60,000 nucleotides of DNA from Bolinopsis microptera. Its lineage: Eukaryota; Ctenophora; Tentaculata; Lobata; Bolinopsidae. Both the position numbers and the translations under genes were made by a program. Within the stretch, counting starts at the first letter, position 1. Each line of letters opens with the position of its first letter. The stretch lies in NCBI RefSeq assembly GCF_026151205.1, contig NC_087081.1, forward strand, positions 12,031,113 through 12,091,112, in the 5' to 3' direction. The notes below the pieces were generated by a model. The model saw only the letters and a program-made list of their open reading frames with translations. It ran no database searches and was not told the DNA's origin. Of this stretch, positions 4,015-45,842 are shown in pieces.

Positions 4015-7000
4015 TTACTTTGCTTCACCCTCTTTTCTATAAATGTCTGTAATATCCTCTATATCACTACAAAGTGAAGGTGTGGTAGTATGCATATTAT
4101 CCTCGTTCAGCTGCCTAAAACTCTCGAATATAAACCAGTGGTTTGACACATCTCTCCATGTTAGTTTGAGACGACGTTTCAGCGCTTGTAGTATGTTCTT
4201 TGGTCGCTGAAATTGTCAAGTGTCAGTGCTTTATACTTATCGATAAAGACCTCCTGAACATATTATAACTATTTGAAACCAAACCCAAGCCTTGTTAAAA
4301 TCATTGTTCCACTAATCATCGTGTTTACACAAAATATATATCTCTAGTGTGAATCCCTCAACCTCATTTATGCAAACACGAGAAATATAATAGGATCATA
4401 GTAAAAACACTGCAGATGCGTGAGTTAAAAATATTAACTTAGAAGCTGCGCTTGCCATTTAGTTAATAGTCGAAGAGTTGGGGATACTTAAGATCATAAG
4501 ATTATATATCAACAAGTTGTGGTAATTTCTATAATCTCCTGGTAAGTGGAGTTCAAAGAGCATAAATATTTAGAATTTGTGCTGAAATGGTAGTCATGGT
4601 GATCACTGATCAAAAGATTGGATACTCGATAAGATTCTTTAAATTAAAGTTTAATTCACACAGGACGCATAGCCAATCCATGATGCAAATAGTTCAGATT
4701 TTTAATTTTCTCCGTAAGAAAAGGGATTAAAGACAGAGATAATAAAGATAAATACCTCGTTCTGATCCCGAAATTCATTCCCGTAAACATCCTCGAAGCA
4801 AGCAAAAATATACTCCGCTATGAGAAAGAGAAAGCTAGTGACAATTCCTAGGGCTATAACTGTGAACAAGCCGGACAGATTGTTCATATCTAGTTTTGAG
4901 GTGGACTGACTTGAGTCTTTGTTACTTTTCTGAAGAAGAAATGCACGTGTTATTCAGATACAATGAAATGTTTTAATATTCTAATTGCAAAGATGCCCGA
5001 ATTCGACGTTTAAAATTATATCCCGCATACAGAATAAAATTTATAAAATCTGCTTTTAAAGTGATAGTAGTGACGCGCACTGCTGTCGAGGAAAGATAAA
5101 AAGCAAGTTGGATTAGATAGACCAGTAAAGTGACAGTATGGATATTGGATATTTACACCTACCCCTTCACATTGTTTAGATTCCCCGGACTGTTTTATTT
5201 CCTCCCAAGCTGTATCTAGATCACTACTCTCACGAAACTTCAGGATTACATTGTTAAACAGGTCTAAATAGGGCGAGTTTGGAGGAAATCCAAAAGCAAA
5301 CCTGAAATCATAAAATGAATCTCTAAAAGAGATAAGTTACTTAACATTTTTAAAAAATCTTATCGTTGCTTTCCGACTACATTAGCACAAAAACACAAAT
5401 AATCCTGACAGTATTTGTTAATCGGTCATTGAGTTGAATATTATATTATTATAGTTTACGAAATCAGAACCCACAGAAACCACACAGGGGATTTACAAAG
5501 AACTAATAGCTGAAGGAAACTTACCCGAACTTACTAAACTTCTCGCCTGCTATCACTAGATCACATGTTCTTTGAACCATGAACTCTAATAAAGCACTCT
5601 CGTAGATAAACGCATAGTCACCCTGATAACAAAGCAAAGATAAGCCTGTTTGTTCATTATCAGATAACCATGACAACGGTTTCTTAATTCATTTTCGTTT
5701 TATTTTTCAAACTCTAACTTCACCTTAAACTTATGAATAAAGTTGTTTCGAAGAAAAAGAAAAGTTTTTAAAATTGCCATGCTAGATTGGAAAAAATAGG
5801 GACTGAAATATTTGTGAAACACACTAGAGAGCAAAGGAAGAGATAAATATCAATTATCAATATTTATACCTTTTTTACCCGTTCAAATCCTTCATCAGCA
5901 CTATTTACGTTATCCAGCTTTTCTGCGATTGCTTTGTACTCATCTGGTGATAATGTTTTGTTCGCAAACACGCACAGGATTGTTCAAATTAATTGAAGCT
6001 TACTTGAAATACATTTATAAACGTTATTTTAGGATCTACATAAATCTGACTCCCAGTGAACCGTTATACCTTTGTTACTTCCGTTGAGTAGAGTTTGAGG
6101 ACTAGTGGACTTGACAGTGCCCCATTTTAGCTTGTTTTGATAAAGAAGATCTTCAACACTATTGATTCCAACTCTCATCCTCGTCACTAAAACATTCCGA
6201 CTCGGTTACTAACTAAGTAACCAGGTCAGGGCAAATTAACGAACCTTGTGTTGTCTAAAAGGGTCAATAACGCAAGAATCACAATAGAAAAACGATCTGG
6301 TCAAACATTCACAAGTCACACAGAAAACAATAAACCTGTAAGAAAGGCAGCTAAGTTAGCCGTGTACATAGCAATAAGGATCATCATAAAGAACCACCAC
6401 ACAGACAGGATGGCCCTCCCCGACAGGCAGTACGGAGCTCCCTCCACTGGGCCCTGCTGGAGGAGGGAGGCGATAACCAGCCACGCACTGTTACTCATGT
6501 TCAGTAGCTCTGAGGTGTGAGTTGTAGTTGGGGTTATCACGTGATAATCACGTGTGTAGGAACCCACGTGGGCGCAGTGGGTCTGTGTTATTGTCACATG
6601 CAATAAGATCAACCGACAAGATCGCTGTTTCATTTTTGACTCGACCCGATCTTACATTACATTCCAGTGACTGTTCCGGGCCCAAATTTCAGTAAGCCAA
6701 ATAGCGTACAAGGCGTGGGTAGCAGAAAGTGGAGAGCTACAGTGTCACATGTGACCGGGAGGACCATCCTGTTGTGCCTGGTATAACGTGAGATTTAGAG
6801 GAGTAGTACCTGTGAAGTAGGCCGCCAGATTAGCCACGTACATGGAGAACACAATGATGACGAAATACCACGTACAGGTCAGGAGGATCCTCCCAGAGAC
6901 ACACTGGCTGGCTCCGTACACCACGCCTTGCTTTAAGAACGAGCTGTCTATTAGTAGCAAGGAGCCGTGTAAAGATAGTGCTTCTGAAAACATTTCCTTG

Positions 7001-10000
7001 CGTTTGGAAAGTTGTAGTTCTGGCACCCATTGAGCGACTAACGTGCATGTAAAACTTGATTATTCACGTTTGTCTTGGTGAGTATAAAAAACTGCTTACC
7101 TAATCTGTCTTCTCCATAGTTTTCAACCTCTTCCACCAAGCATTGATACGTGTTATACCTGAACAACGTAACTGTTTTACAAATTCAGCAGAAAAAGTCC
7201 ACACAATTTGTTTAAATTTTCGAGTGATTCAATCGAGCCCATATTTTTAATTAATTTTTAATCGAAACATCCGAAGAAAAATATCTACCGCAAGATAAAA
7301 AGGACGAATTTTAAAACACCACAAAGACCACAAAAACCTTATCAAACTCTTCCTGCCATTTTTAGCCTCTCCCCGGGCCCTATTACACACCGAGCAAGGA
7401 CAGGTCATGAGAGCGTGCATCTTCCTTCCGTATAACCCGTAGGGGGATACCTTGTTGTAAACACACACTATAATGGTGATAAGGAACGCTGATAGGATCA
7501 CACAGTACCTATAGGTTAAAGTTTAGAGGTTAGATATGGAGGCAAGATTTAGAATTAGAGGTTAAGAGATATGATTCGGGTTCGAGTTAAATACGAGTTA
7601 GAACATTTTTAAAGCTTTGTAAGGGAAAAAAGGTGATATCTGTAGAAGTGCAGACTGTAGTAGTGCAGACTTCAGTACAATAACGTTAATTGTGGAACTT
7701 CTTTTATTGGTATGTGCAGACGGAATGATAAAGACATAAAGTGGTATTAAAAAGATTGTTAAAAGCGCAAACAATGAATAACTATGATTTTGAACAAACT
7801 GTAAGCAACTCACCAGACATTAGGATCGAAAGGTTGCAAGAAAAAAAACTCGTTCGAAGAGTCCACTTCTGCTTTGACTACTACAGCCAGTCCAACTTGC
7901 ATGAAGGGAACACTAAAATCAATCGATTTCTCTCGTGCCGCATTGATAGAGAAGTGGACAGTCGAAATGTCAATAAACTGAACATGATGCGGATCAATGT
8001 CATATCACGATATTATCAATATCATATAATCAAATTATAATTTGAATACCATCTGAATTCTGATCGATCGTAAAGCTGCAGTATGGCTTTTTATCTTTCT
8101 ACAATTATAGTCCATCCTTGATTGTAACTATTTCACAAAATAAAGTAAACGAGCTAAAGTCGATTTAAAGCCATATAAAGGCCTAACTTAAGCCAATTTA
8201 AAGCCTACTATTTACCCCTGTTAAGAGATCGTGTACCAAGCCGTCCCATCCGGTTGTATAGTTCGGGTTAACGCCTCCCCACCGATTATCTCGAGGTAAC
8301 ACAAACTTGTAGTTGAACTTTAGTTTCTGTCAATAATGTTAGTTTGATTTAAACGTTCATAAGAATTTTTTTCTTCTTAAAAATCATAGTAAATGGGAAA
8401 CGCTTTTTTTAATAATCCAACAAATCACTGCCGATTGCTCGGATCTTATTTCTATAATGAGTGGTACCATTAGGCTTGGATCCCTGAACACCCTTTCACC
8501 AACAACAACAAAAAACACTACACTACCTACCTCTGAAATCTTTCTGACAAGGTCAATGCAGTATCCGTTGAAACAGCCGTTACCCTCACAACCGGTGCAG
8601 TCCTCAACCTTCTCCAGCCATCCCGCGCCACAGAGGAAACAGTTTTCTGTGTTATTGCACTGCTCGCACTTTATTCCCTAAAAAATTTGAACATTGTTTG
8701 GTTCTTTTTTCCTGCGATGATATGACTTTATGGGTCCTTTTCTGGGATCAGCTATAATTATAATTATACAATACATTGCTTAATTCTAAAATTTAAAGAG
8801 AATTTTTAGCAAGAAGCTTAGTCCTATACTGTGTGAACTGGTAATGCTATTTTGTGTACAAATTTTACATATTTAATAGTACCATATCAGTAAAAACCGT
8901 AATAACCTGGTTTAATTAAGTATATTATATATGTATTTGATAAGTCTTATATATAAGACTTCACAAATCAGTGTCTAGACAACATCAACGTGATAAATCT
9001 AACAATGCACCATGTGTTTAGGTTTTAACACTGTTCGCGCTATCGAAACAATGCTAAAAAACGAGCAGATTTGAAACAGAAAAATTTGCCAAATCTAAAT
9101 GAATAAACGGGATCGACGCGATCGGTTGAAACAAAGGAAGTATCATCTTTATCACAAACCATCAATATTAGACCATCGCGTGTCAAATTTCTCACCTTCG
9201 CACTATAAAACAACCTCTAATCTTCAACAAATCATCAAACATTTTTCTCATCTTCAGTAATCAAACCGATTCAACAAACCCCTCTCAAAATGAAGTTCTT
9301 CGCTGTATTGTTCGCTGCCTTCTTCGCCATGAGCATGGCTAGCCCCGTGGAGCTGGAGGAGCGACAGGACTTCATCAACACTATCATCGAGATGGTCAAA
9401 GGATTTATTTGCGGCATGGACAGCCTTCCAGTAAGCCTTTACCCCATTTTTTCACATGTTATAAAAATGAATTGTTTTCTATCCCTCGTCGAATGGAATT
9501 AATTTGGTCCTCTTTCTGTCAGTCTTAGAGTTTAAAAATTAATCACTTTACTTTAATTTAATCTGCTGTTCAGCCTATCATTTATTAAATACAATTATTC
9601 CCTTTAGTTCGACAACCCTATGCTCCAGATGGTATTCAACATGGTCAAAGGATTCCTGCAATGCCCCGAAGGACAAGAATAAGATATATTCACTTTTAGT
9701 GTTACGTCATGTTTTGAGTCAATAAAACAGCTATGAAAAATGTTTTAAAAATCTTGACTTTTACTTCGTTATAATACCATCATAATGGTTACCATAATGG
9801 TTGTATCTACAAATCAGATCTGTGTTCCTCATAATAGGTTAATGTCGTTAATTGGTTATAATCATTGCTCTTAATTGGAGATACTGCTACAAAGTTTTTT
9901 AAGTCAAGCATACTGTTTGCAGAGCCCTCATATCAATATTTTCATCTTCAATACAACACAGCTTTGGGGTGACTCACTGATATTAATTCGGGAATATTAC

Positions 10001-16000: not shown

Positions 16001-19000
16001 TAAGCTTACATATTTTATAAGCTTTTAACAAGAATTTCGCCGCGGTTAAACCATGCATCACCAATTTCCCCACCACCTACGATGTACTTGTACCATTAAT
16101 TCTTTTGAGTGACTGGAAAAAAGTGCATCATATTTACATACTGTGTTTTTTATAAATGAGTGGGATTTGTGCATGGTAAACCTGATCACTTATTTCCTAC
16201 GATCTTTTTGCCTTCGGCAAGAGTAGGGAAAAAAATCTCACCATAGCTGTCGTAGCTAGTTAAAATGGAGAAATATATCCAGCCATATCTGTCAAGTATT
16301 GCAGCAATAGCCTCGCTTTGATGAGTATCTGAAGAGAAGTAAATAACTTTTAGTGCGGCATATGGGATCGTTATATATTTTATAAAACGTACCAGCTCGC
16401 CATTTTTGATAAGTCGGATTAGAACCTGTAAGACTGGCCTCCAGCTTGCCATTTTTGAGATCCAAGCATATCGAGGTTGTTCAAAGTAAAGGGTATAGAA
16501 TGTTCAGCTCGACAAAATACCGATGGAAATTATTTCGTAGGCCATAACATGACTCGTCCAGATCCAGTCTTAACCTTAAATTGGACATAACTCACTAGTA
16601 TAGCTGAAGTAGCTCTGATACGTCGGATAACGGATTAGAACCTGTAAGATTGGCCTCCAGCTCGCCATTTTGAGATCCAAGCATATCGAGGATGTTCAAA
16701 GGGTATAAAATGTTCAGCTCGACAAAATACCGATGGAAATTATTTCGTAGGCCCTAAAATTACTCATCCAGATCCAGTCTTAACCTTAAATTGGACATAA
16801 CTCACTAGTTGAAGTAGCTCTGATACTTCGGATTAGAACCTGTAAGACTGGCCTCCAGCTCGCTATTTTTGAGATCCAAGCATAACGAGGATGTTCAAAG
16901 GGTGTAGAATATTCAGCTCGACAAAATACCGATGGAAATTATTATTTCCCTGATACGTCGGATTAGAACCTGTAAGACTGGCCTCCAGCTCGCTATTTTT
17001 GAGATCCAATCATATCGAGGTTGTTCAAAGGGTGTAAAATGTTCAGCTCGACAAAGTACCGATGGAAATTATTATTTCCCTGATACGTCGGATTAGAACC
17101 TGTAAGACTGGCCTCCAGCTCGCTATTTTTGAGATCCAATCATATCGAGGTTGTTCAAAGGGTGTAAAATGTTCAGCTCGACAAAATACCGGTGGAAATT
17201 ATTTCGTAGGCCCTAAAATGACTCGTCCAGATCCAGTCTTAACTTTAAATTGGACATAACTCACTAGCTAAAGTAGCCCTGCAACACGTCGGATTAGAAC
17301 CTGTAAGACTGGCCTCCAGCTCGCCATTTTTGAGATCCAATCATATCTAGGATGTTCAAAGGGTGTCGACTGTAGAATGTTCAGCTCGACAAAATACCGG
17401 TGGAAATTATTTCGTAGGCCCTAAAATGACTCGTCCAGATCCAGTCTTAACTTTAAATTGGACATAACTCACTAGTTGAAGTAGCTCTGATACGTCGGAT
17501 TAGAACCTGTAAGACTGGCCTCCAGCTCGCCATTTTTGAGATCCAATCATATCTAGGATGTTCAAAGGGTGTCGACTGTAGAATGTTCAGCTCGACAAAA
17601 TACCGGTGGAAATTATTTCGTAGGCCCTAAAATGACTCGTCCAGATCCAGTCTTCACCTTAAATTGGACATAACTCACTAGCTAAAGTAGCCCTGCAATA
17701 CGTCGGATTAGAACCTGTAAGACTGGCCTCCAGCTCGCCATTTTTGAGATCCAATCATATCTAGGATGTTCAAAGGGTGTAAAATGTTCAGCTCGACAAA
17801 ATACCGGTGGAAATTATTTCGTAGGCCCTAAAATGACTCGTCCAGATCCAGTCTTAACTTTAAATTGGACATAACTCACTAGCTAAAGTAGCCCTGCAAT
17901 ACGTCGGATTAGAACCTGTAAGACTGGCCTCCAGCTCGCCATTTTTGAGATCCAATCATATCTAGGATGTTCAAAGGGTGTCGACTGTAGAATGTTCAGC
18001 TCGACAATATACTGGTGGAAATTATTTCGTAGGCCCTAAAATGACTCGTCCAGATCCAGTCTTGACTTTAAATTGGACATAACTCACTAGCTAAAGTAGC
18101 CCTGCAATACGTCGGATTAGGACCTGTAAGACTGGCCTCCAGCTCGCCATTTTTGAGATCCAATCATATCTAGGATGTTCAAAGGGTGTCGACTGTAGAA
18201 TGTTCAGCTCGACAATATACTGGTGGAAATTATTTCGTAGGCCCTAAAATGACTCGTCCAGATCCAGTCTTAACTTTAAATTGGACATAACTCACTAGCT
18301 AAAGTAGCCCTGCAATACGTCGGATAACGGATTAGAACCTGTAAGACTGGCCTCCAGCTCGCCATTTTTGAGATCCAATCATATCTAGGATGTTCAAAGG
18401 GTGTCGACTGTAGAATGTTCAGCTCGACAATATACTGGTGGAAATTATTTCGTAGGCCCTAAAATGACTCGTCCAGATCCAGTCTTAACTTTAAATTGGA
18501 CATAACTCACTAGCTAAAGTAGCCCTGCAATACGTCGGATAACGGATTAGAACCTGTAAGACTGGCCTCCAGCTCGCCATTTTTGAGATCCAATCATATC
18601 TAGGTTGTTCAAAGGGTGTCGACTGTAGAATGTTCAGCTCGACAATATACTGGTGGAAATTATTTCGTAGGCCCTAAAATGACTCGTCCAGATCCAGTCT
18701 TAACTTTAAATTGGACATAACTCACTAGCTGAAGTAGCTCTGATACGTCGGATTAGAACGTGGAAGACTGGCCTCCAGCTCGCCATTTTTGAAATATAAT
18801 TATATCGAGGTTGTTCAATGGGTGTAGAATGTTCAGCTTGACAAAATACCGGTGGAAATTATTTCGTAGGCCCTAAAATGACTCGTCCAGATCCAGTCTT
18901 AAGTTTAAATTGGACATAACTCAATAGCTGAAGTAGCTCTGATACTTCGGATTAGAACCTGTAAGACTGGCCTCCAGCTCGCTATTTTAGAGATCCAAGC

Positions 19001-22000
19001 ATAACGAGGATGTACAAAGGGTGTAGAATACTCAGTTCGACAAAATACCGGCGAGAAATTATTTTTTCGAAATTATTTCGTACGGAGGCTAGCAGTTGTG
19101 GCCTCCGTACGCCAGTATAATTGTTGGCCGTATGTTTTATGTGAATTGTGGATTTTTGTCATCTGTGTACATTGGTTTATGGCTGCTAAACACAGGTTTT
19201 GTTAAAGTGCTTGATTAAGCAACAATTATTTACTGCCATTTTCAACACCACAGAGATAAATATAGCTCGAATTATCTTTAATAATTATTAAAAAGTTGAA
19301 AATAACAATATAATACCAGTAGGAGGCATCTGAAGGAGGTAAGGTCTGAAAATGGGATGAATAAGGAATGGATCAGTAGCGGTGGGAGCAATGACAGGAA
19401 TGTTATAACTGTTAGCAATGTCAGCTACTGTAGTGACGAGATGGGATGGACCAGGGAATATGATGGCACTCACACCTCTTTGTAGCAGCTCGCATACTGG
19501 GGAAGAATTCTGAGTTTACATTTGAGTGGGTACCAAAAGTTAATGTTATATAAGTTTCTCTGTCGGAGAGCGATGTTGAATTATTCAAAACGTACTTTGA
19601 TTTATTTAACAGCGATGGAACGAATATTTCCATACCTTCTTGAACTGCCTCTCTAGGTGAGTTGCTGATTGTTCTGTTAATGATCTCTATAACAGTCCAC
19701 CTGATACGATTATAATTAATTGTAATTAATTAGGTGAGATTATTATAATTATGTGTGATTATATTTTTTACTCGTTTCAAGCCCGGTCAAAATATTGGCC
19801 AATTCTATAAAACCTCATAAGTTAGTTTCCTTTTAGTCAAAATATCAAAAGTTTAGCGTCCAAAAGTTAAACTCGGTATAGCCACTTCCAAACTCAATTA
19901 GCACCCAAATCTCTATATTAAACAAAGGAATAGGCACCGGGTTGTGTTAACGTGGTCAAAAAATAAGTAGACATGTGATAAAACGTTTAAAATCATTGAG
20001 AAATCTTATAGATCATTTCACAATGAAACGATAACATCATCCAGCCTCATGGAAACATGAAATTAGATTACAGTTTAACTTGGAAAATTTAACAGGTTAG
20101 AGGTGGAGTCTTTGTATTAGCAGCTAATAAGATTTAAAGCTATCCACCTGTTTGTACATTTAAATAGGATAGCAGAACTGAGATGAGTATCAATTCGGAA
20201 AGTCCTGACACCAAAATGGTAAGTGTTGAGACTCATCATATGTGGAGACATAGTGCAATCCGTCTATCGAATCACAATGTTCTTGTTTTTATCAACAAAA
20301 TGGTTCATTTCCATTACGATTTATGCCAGCTATTTTAAATATTTCACAAACTTTTCTTAGCCATTTGTATAGTATATTTTAACCAAGTAACCCTCTTTCA
20401 GAAGATCCTGATAATCATAGCGTTTGTTGCTCTGTCTCAAGCTGACGAGACTGATAACATCAAGTTAGCAGCTGATAACCCTCAGAAACTTCAAGCTCTC
20501 TTTAGCCAGTTCAGACAAGATAACCATCGGGTCTACAAGAATGCTCTCGAAGGCAGGATGAGAATGGCTGTCTTCAGGTATGCTAATTTTCCCCTTTTTC
20601 TATGTGACTTTCTTGGGTTTTTCTTGTAACTGTACGCTGAGAAATACCATCTACTACATATATTGGCATATTCTACTCATATATTAGCATATTCTACTAC
20701 ATATATTAGCATAATCTACTACATATATTAGCATATTCTACTACATACATTAGCATATTCTACTACATATATTAGCATATTCTACTCATATTTACAGGAT
20801 CCTATTATCGTATCTACTATCTATTGTAACCTTGTAACCCTCCGCAGAAACTTCGTTAAGAAAGCAGCCAAGATAAACGCTGAACAAGACGATATCACAG
20901 TTGGAATAACTTTCTTCGCTGATCTGACTGAAGAGGAAAAGAGGGCGTATCACGGTGCTAACGTTACTGACCAGGTAAGCTCTCATAATCATATCCTCCA
21001 CTAGTTACCAAACTTGGCCAATTTTATACTACCTCAAATTATTTGGGGCCAATTTCAGGCGCTTTTTGCAGTTTAAGTTTCTCTAGTTTTCAAAGATTAT
21101 ATCTGAACATACTTCAGAAAACATACGTTATCATTCCACAAGCTTCGTGATACGCCCCCATTATCAAGTTATTAAAATTATCAGGTAGAAGACGCAGAAG
21201 AATACGTCGCTGACGAGGACGAGGCAGCACCAGCCTGGGGCAGCTCCATCTCACACAAACACCGTTACGGAGCCGTCAAGAGCCAGGGCACATGTGGTAG
21301 TTGCTGGAGCTTCGCTTCTGTTGGTCTCGTTGAGGGATACCAGTCCGCACTAACAGGCCGATATACAGCTCTCTCAGAGAAGAACGTCCTGGATTGCTCT
21401 AATTGCGGAAGCTGCAATGGAGGTTACCACACGCAGGCCATGAACTGGATCAAGAGATACAACAAACTGGCCTCCGCATCTAGCTACCGGTTAGACTCAA
21501 TCACCTGGCAATTGTAGCCACCATATTCAACCATATCCACCCGTTTTACATTTACAAGATATAGCAACCATTCAACTATTTCTCTACAGAGGGAACCAAA
21601 TACTATAACTTCAAATGTAGAACCAGGAATATTCTTACTCCTCTCTGCTTCAGGTACTCACCATCCAAGGGAAGCTGTCGAGGAAGCAGTCACCGGAACG
21701 CTATGACCATCAGAGTGTCCTCAGTGTACACTGCACGAGGTAGCACTAACATGGCCAGCGCTCTCAAGAAGGGACCTGTTATTTTCTACCTTTACAACTT
21801 CCACGGAGTCGCTGTCGAGGGATACAAAGGAGGTAACCATCAACACGAATTTTTATCTTGTAACGGATTTATTGCTTTTAGCTCCATCGATGTGGATGCC
21901 GGTGGGGAGGCGGCCAGTGCACCCAAAATCACTCATCCCGTCCAATTCAAATAAAAATATAGTTCACATCCTCACCATAAATATCCAGATTGACAACATC

Positions 22001-45485: not shown

Positions 45486-45842
45486 TCACCCTGATTTTTT
45501 GTGAAATTTGATTTGAAGATAGCAATTGACTAACAAACTAGGGCCTGAGACCGAATTTTTGAGGGGATTTCGGACTCCAGGTGCCCACCAGTGCCCGCGG
45601 GACAGCCACACCCATTTTTGGTCCCAATTATGCCCAATTTTTTTAAGTAGAACACCTAAAAAAATCTGGGTTTTGAGCAGTTAAAGTGATTTGGAATAGT
45701 TGGGCATAATTGGGACCAAAAATGGGCGTGGCTGTCTCGCGGGCACCCAGAGTCCGGAACCCCCTCAAAAGTTCGGTCACATGCCCTAATTTGTCGGTCA
45801 ATTGCTATCTCCAAATCAAATTTCACAAAAAAATCAGGGTGA
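45486..45842. mobile_element. Foldback MITE with arms of about 150 bp
   Basis: The ends TCACCCTGATTTTTTGTGAA and its complement are the outer tips of two nearly complementary arms that include GGGCATAATTGGGACCAAAA and GTCAATTGCTATCT-type sequence. The spacer is short. No target duplication or open frame was found. Confidence 0.75.

Follow-up and report, generated by a model that had tools for sequence, protein, structure and literature searches.

A ctenophore glutamate-receptor gene with two interchangeable pore exons that encode lysine or glutamine at the Q/R site

Results

The window analyzed here is a stretch of 60,000 nucleotides from the ctenophore Bolinopsis microptera, and all positions below are counted from its first letter unless a contig is named. 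On the minus strand, we modeled the S1-M4 region of a gene from 8677 to 4756 as 12 exons, all bordered by AG..GT. Ten of these exons are common, and the other two, which we call A and B, are the subject of this study:

7814-8677, minus strand: S1 exons (8677-8531, 8326-8216, 7977-7814)
7338-7508, minus strand: exon of M1 and the cysteine-rich loop
7100-7158, minus strand: exon upstream of the pair, M1-M2 loop, ending in phase 1
6810-6983, minus strand: exon A, encoding the pore helix, a filter whose Q/R residue is Lys, SGR and M3
6931-6933, minus strand: AAG (Lys), the Q/R-site codon in exon A
6336-6509, minus strand: exon B, encoding the pore helix, a filter whose Q/R residue is Gln, SGR and M3
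6457-6459, minus strand: CAG (Gln), the Q/R-site codon in exon B
6070-6186, minus strand: exon downstream of the pair, start of S2
4756-5943, minus strand: S2 and M4 exons (5943-5870, 5622-5525, 5301-5163, 4929-4756)

Both isoforms match Pfam PF00060 well above its cut-off of 30.8 bits (96.9 bits for isoform A and 123.5 for isoform B), and both match PF10613 with the same score of 87.8 bits. Judged by its domains and segment order, the gene encodes an ionotropic glutamate receptor, S1-M1-pore-M3-S2-M4, with Lig_chan and ligand-binding domains. The M1-M2 loop encoded by exon 7338-7508 contains CPCSVC, as read by eye, and so has the cysteine-rich loop given as a feature of Epsilon-class ctenophore receptors in PMC6307864, where the ctenophore ionotropic glutamate receptors found fall in the Epsilon subfamily. 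Further upstream, from 19.5 to about 13.9 kb, are stretches resembling an amino-terminal domain, mostly weak matches to single-exon paralogs. Amid these upstream matches lies a tandem array of ~208-bp units (16407-19024; 9.4 copies, 94% match from 17083). Elsewhere in the window, 25849-25085 on the minus strand is occupied by an open frame of 255 residues that other long frames overlap, and very stable folds are predicted on both strands at about 2001-2241 and 45521-45761 (GC-corrected z about -8 and -6), which suggests long inverted repeats, perhaps from mobile elements.

Exon A (6983-6810) and exon B (6509-6336) are 174 bp long each, occupy the same slot in the frame and are separated by an intron of 300 nt. 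Their coordinates, lengths, AG/GT borders and phase 1 at each end are exactly those of the original prediction, as are the positions of the Lys and Gln codons. The exon that precedes the pair (7158-7100) terminates in ...TTA G, followed by gtaagc across the border, and the exon that follows it (6186-6070) opens with TG ACG AGG ATG. The donors of the two pore exons, GTACTA for A and GTTTAT for B, both appear to deviate from the donor consensus. With either A or B alone, the spliced frame is open over 476 aa. It is equally open with both exons (534 aa), as had been predicted, and with neither (418 aa). The two peptides align without gaps, with 27 of 58 residues identical; in the predicted length of 59 residues, the 59th is a split codon that the next exon completes. 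At the DNA level, 83 of 174 bases differ. By their frame and borders, A and B are a tandem pore-exon pair of one gene, interchangeable in frame. A search for a haplotig or another copy of this locus found none.

Calcium entry through glutamate receptors is classically controlled at the Q/R site, whose residue vertebrates determine by RNA editing. In PDB chains of GluA2 and GluA1, the residue aligned with the Gln of isoform B is the leading Q of 'QQG', which in GluA2 we take to be the Q/R site. This register agrees with the prediction that A carries Lys and B carries Gln at the equivalent of the AMPA-receptor site. AlphaFold models of fragments from both exons, of moderate confidence (mean pLDDT 75 for A and 84 for B), show a pore helix followed by a loop and an extended M3 helix, with the Lys or Gln directly past the pore helix. 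A Foldseek search with the exon A fragment returned nothing at E <= 0.001; ten of the 12 listed matches were glutamate receptors, all of them weak (E >= 1.1). Across 15 aligned pores, namely A, B and 13 of 30 other matches in the genome, the Q/R position is Gly in nine, Gln in three, and Ser, Asn and Lys in one each, the single Lys being that of exon A. Inspection of the wider list of pores by eye, some of them split by introns, gave no further Lys at the visible Q/R sites. Two paralogs, L007 and L022, have a Lys one residue past the site (GKN and GKT, read by eye), that is, a shifted positive charge at the pore tip.

As in the GluA2-type switch, a neutral and a positive residue thus stand as alternatives at the homologous pore position. 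The Lys, however, is encoded in the genome (AAG) by a separate exon and does not arise by GluA2-type A-to-I editing of the Gln codon. Gly predominates at the Q/R site in ctenophore receptors, both in the pores aligned here (9 of 15) and, as far as PMC12226733 describes them, in Mnemiopsis. Therefore, the analogy with editing drawn in the original prediction fits in the sense that the pair may work like an edited site, but not as a simple switch from an unedited to an edited state.

A search of the whole genome (264,652,675 bases, 232 contigs) yielded at least 32 pore matches including A and B, and no other two among the matches listed lie less than 4 kb apart. No second pore exon was found in 9.9 kb at the paralog closest to this gene (C5:16735923, 75% to exon B), and the eight stretches tested around it contain no antisense element of the kind described below (scores 15-21). 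For one paralog, the best PDB matches of the S1-M4 region are chains of ML032222a, a Mnemiopsis receptor (PMC12226733). Many paralogs (L005-L015, L019 and L021) are single open frames of ~510-990 residues from stop to stop, unlike the gene under study and a few relatives, which have many exons.

We examined whether exon A diverges from exon B as a decaying copy would. When exon B was left to decay neutrally to the observed 83 differences, only 377 of 4000 simulated copies remained free of stops, and none of these 377 matched the similarity of A: their BLOSUM scores averaged 32 and reached 68 at most, compared with 142 for A against B. Neutral decay from paralog L001 (87 differences) left 313 of 4000 copies stop-free, again with none reaching the observed similarity. 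The A-B differences are distributed 31/17/35 over the three codon positions, the second being lowest, and exon A retains eight of the ten columns that are invariant across 14 other aligned pores. Protein constraint on exon A, as opposed to decay, is supported by these comparisons. Exon A has nonetheless lost W9, P25 and W37 (an invariant Pro, one invariant Trp and one near-invariant Trp). Its branch has a length of 1.1, against 0.02 for B, in a tree built from 22 pore segments; this tree, which holds paralogs of the same genome only and whose bootstrap is not settled, does not reject a clade of A plus B (p 0.555). Because of the long branch and the loss of three near-invariant residues, relaxed constraint on exon A is possible. 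All in all, exon A looks like a fast-evolving yet constrained daughter of a B-like exon.

Between the two exons we found a segment, absent from the original prediction, that is similar to the pore exon when read as its reverse complement. Its parts and predicted targets are as follows:

6695-6790, minus strand: antisense element to both pore exons (96 nt), candidate common docking element
6750-6772, minus strand: core of the element, used in both alternative pairings
6880-6901, minus strand: SGR codons of exon A, with which the core is predicted to pair
6405-6425, minus strand: SGR codons of exon B, with which the core is predicted to pair

The local antisense scores of the element, 34 with A and 37 with B, exceed those of all 1560 other window-strand pieces of the 60 kb (maxima 31 for A and 34 for B). 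When further loci were included, to a total of 3986 pieces, the A score was reached by 84, of which 66 lie at true pore exons, and the B score by 94, all of which do. Away from pore exons, 18 of 2426 locus pieces, in two kinds of place, reached the A score, and none reached the B score or both scores. Antisense likeness to A alone is therefore not extreme by this measure. The similarity spans about 70-80 nt and includes the exon A-specific CAAGGCGTGG.

The predicted duplexes of the 96-nt element are strong with both exons, at -83.2 kcal/mol with A and -86 to -87 kcal/mol with B. With 13 paralogous pore exons, in a comparison where B stood at -86.2, the same element gives -41.3 to -58.5 kcal/mol, which is 25-45 weaker (-54.2 for the closest paralog). 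Synonymous recoding, carried out 300 times for each of the two exons, never equaled the real duplex; the best reached -82.7 for A, which is close, and -79.7 for B. When 2454 further 96-nt window-strand pieces from elsewhere in the 60 kb were compared, none was as strong with A, one was as strong with B and none was as strong with both; after GC correction, the counts were zero for A and zero for B. The windowed and specificity tests are sharper than duplex energies of the whole A-B intron, which discriminate weakly (15 of 300 intron shuffles were as good for A and 38 of 300 for B).

The core at 6750-6772 is predicted to form 19 pairs with each exon, on one diagonal and at the same SGR codons. 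Since its pairings with A and B use the same SGR-coding site, only one of the two can form at once. Complementarity of one element to a target at each exon, here as predicted pairing, is what characterizes docking-site/selector systems. As isolated duplexes, the two pairings are nearly equal in energy. In folds of the transcript, pairing of the element with A is strongly favored, and the state in which it pairs with B costs 5 to 10 kcal/mol more. We considered whether either fold masks splice sites directly and did not see this; the predicted pairing leaves the splice sites uncovered. At 37 C, the donor of A has an openness of 0.62 with A bound versus 0.50, and the acceptor of B has an openness of 0.63 with B bound versus 0.48. 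Because each site is more open when its own exon is bound, the reverse of what simple masking would give, such masking is not predicted. Wobble-compatible mismatches, a possible sign of selection for pairing, are not in excess (transitions 3/5 for A and 3/5 for B). We regard the element as a candidate switch for mutual exclusion or, alternatively, as the relic of an inverted duplication.

Discussion

We give a probability of about 0.7 to the reading in which this ctenophore glutamate-receptor gene has a duplicated pore exon, the copies are used singly and the A copy would lower calcium entry. The pore exon of one gene would have been duplicated in tandem, with one copy entering each transcript. 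Isoform B, with Gln, would retain the conserved pore, and isoform A, with Lys, would carry a permanent positive charge at the pore-loop tip. Channels with isoform A would be expected to have low calcium permeability and low conductance and to resist polyamines, and A would most likely serve as a minority subunit in heteromers. These statements on permeation are drawn from homologous sites of other receptors: editing of Gln to Arg in GluA2 abolishes calcium permeability (PMC8257547), and a change from Asn to Lys at the homologous site of the NMDA receptor severely cuts calcium permeation and magnesium block (PMC12226733). Provided that isoform A is made, the balance of these analogies is moderately in favor of an effect of the Lys on permeation. 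The predicted permeability switch by exon choice thus stands as far as the interchangeable in-frame pair, the Lys and Gln at the Q/R site and the constraint on exon A are concerned, whereas permeation and exclusivity are what we infer.

Exclusion of one exon by the other is plausible, since a transcript with both would encode two pores and stay in frame, the two donors appear to depart from the consensus and the element is predicted to pair with one exon only. Taken together with the layout of the exons, we consider it likely that A and B are mutually exclusive. Because transcripts with both exons or with neither stay in frame, decay of wrong transcripts would not enforce this, and the 300-nt intron is not obviously too short for splicing. 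More tentatively, and with the odds somewhat against it, the common intronic element may aid exclusion through a pairing that engages only one of the two exons. In such a scheme, the element holding A would free B for splicing and vice versa, the duplicated arm being the exon itself, and the donor of A or the acceptor of B would sit in the loop closed by the element helix. That calcium permeability is set by a choice between Gln and Lys exons, enforced by one antisense exon copy, with the switch born together with the duplication, is a doubtful proposition when taken as a whole.

A neutral relic of an inverted duplication would explain the sequence of the element equally well, without explaining exclusion. 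We see not quite an even chance that A and B are exclusive through splicing factors or weak sites while the element is such a relic; this alternative overlaps our main reading and competes with its RNA-pairing step only. Inverted copies can arise by mutation alone, and the 70-80 nt of similarity, with the exon A-specific CAAGGCGTGG included, are what a copied exon fragment would look like. The lack of an excess of wobble-compatible mismatches and the unmasked splice sites point the same way, but a relic would not be expected to be about equally complementary to A and B despite their 83 differences in 174 bases, or to exceed the complementarity to the closest paralog so far. The hairpin formed by exon A and the intron also raises the thought that it is a substrate of ADAR, so that editing tunes the site instead of, or besides, exon choice. 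GluA2 has an exon-intron hairpin that serves as an ADAR substrate, and the hairpin of A is stable (-86.7 kcal/mol, z -4.73, 0 of 200 shuffles as stable), with a stem that starts at the G of the Lys codon. In the genome, the adenosine-deaminase domain of ADAR-type enzymes has 13 matches, of which six are nearly whole, although this domain is also found in tRNA deaminases; the matches lie on C1, C4, C6 and C8, with two nearly whole ones side by side on C4. However, comparable stability, with GC content corrected for, is seen in 36 of 1494 windows across the 60 kb, both A of the Lys codon fall just outside the stem, and recoding sites in the ctenophore Mnemiopsis, while they exist, number merely seven in three genes (PMC9989829). 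We consider editing at this site very improbable.

The remaining alternatives concern the use of exon A. It could be used rarely or never, or yield a non-functional subunit, as a recent duplicate drifting to loss. The long branch, the loss of W9, P25 and W37 and the off-consensus donor GTACTA would fit such a fate, but exon A keeps its open frame and splice sites, retains eight of ten invariant columns and resembles B far beyond neutral decay (0 of 377, where merely 377 of 4000 decayed copies were stop-free at all), which makes this unlikely, if less so than editing. Least probable by our estimate is a receptor with a duplicated pore segment, made because both exons are included or because A acts as an optional cassette. 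Every combination of exons is in frame, but an extra pore loop and M3 would presumably disrupt the membrane topology, and exons of equal length and phase that align without gaps have the pattern of alternatives.

The nearest precedent for single use of two pore exons is NALCN, in which, according to PMC3557258, alternative exons of one gene (15 or 31) add or remove a pore lysine in invertebrates (EEEE versus EKEE/EEKE), read as a switch between calcium-like and sodium-like states. NALCN is a four-domain channel and not a ligand-gated tetramer, and its alternative exons were supported by conservation across phyla and by isoform expression, whereas the ctenophore pair is known from the sequence of one genome; the currents of NALCN isoforms were indistinguishable from background, so that the effect on permeation is unproven there too (PMC3557258). 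Q/R editing of GluA2 concerns the same pore position, with neutral Gln against a positive residue and the same predicted effect on calcium, but it uses A-to-I editing and Arg where exon choice and Lys are proposed for the ctenophore receptor (PMC8257547). The flip/flop exons of AMPA receptors (115 nt) are likewise mutually exclusive exons of an ionotropic glutamate receptor; they lie at the end of S2, alter gating and shift the frame when included jointly, while the ctenophore pair covers the pore and M3 and keeps the frame (PMC8257547). In LCaV3, the choice of exon 12a or 12b shifts the Na/Ca preference of an invertebrate channel, as is proposed here, although it does so in another family and by changing an extracellular loop instead of a filter residue (PMC7382465). 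Docking-site/selector structures, such as those of Dscam exon 6, share with our candidate element the principle that one element has several targets, of which one is paired and one exon is chosen; the paired elements described in PMC6071210 are intronic, while the ctenophore targets are both within coding exons, and an antisense fragment of an exon serves as the candidate element. Among the matches listed from titles and abstract openings of the open-licence literature, none reported a pore-exon pair in a glutamate receptor.

Alternative pore exons (in NALCN), exclusive flip/flop exons outside the AMPA-receptor pore and an edited Q/R site were already known. New here would be exclusive pore exons in a further receptor family, at the best-known permeability site, together with an unusual antisense element that targets exons. 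This element offers a testable origin for mutual exclusion, in which a partial inverted copy of an exon is able to pair with either copy. If our reading is true, exon choice would be a second route to control of the Q/R site, in a lineage whose synapses may be of independent origin, and the permeability of ctenophore receptors would become directly testable.
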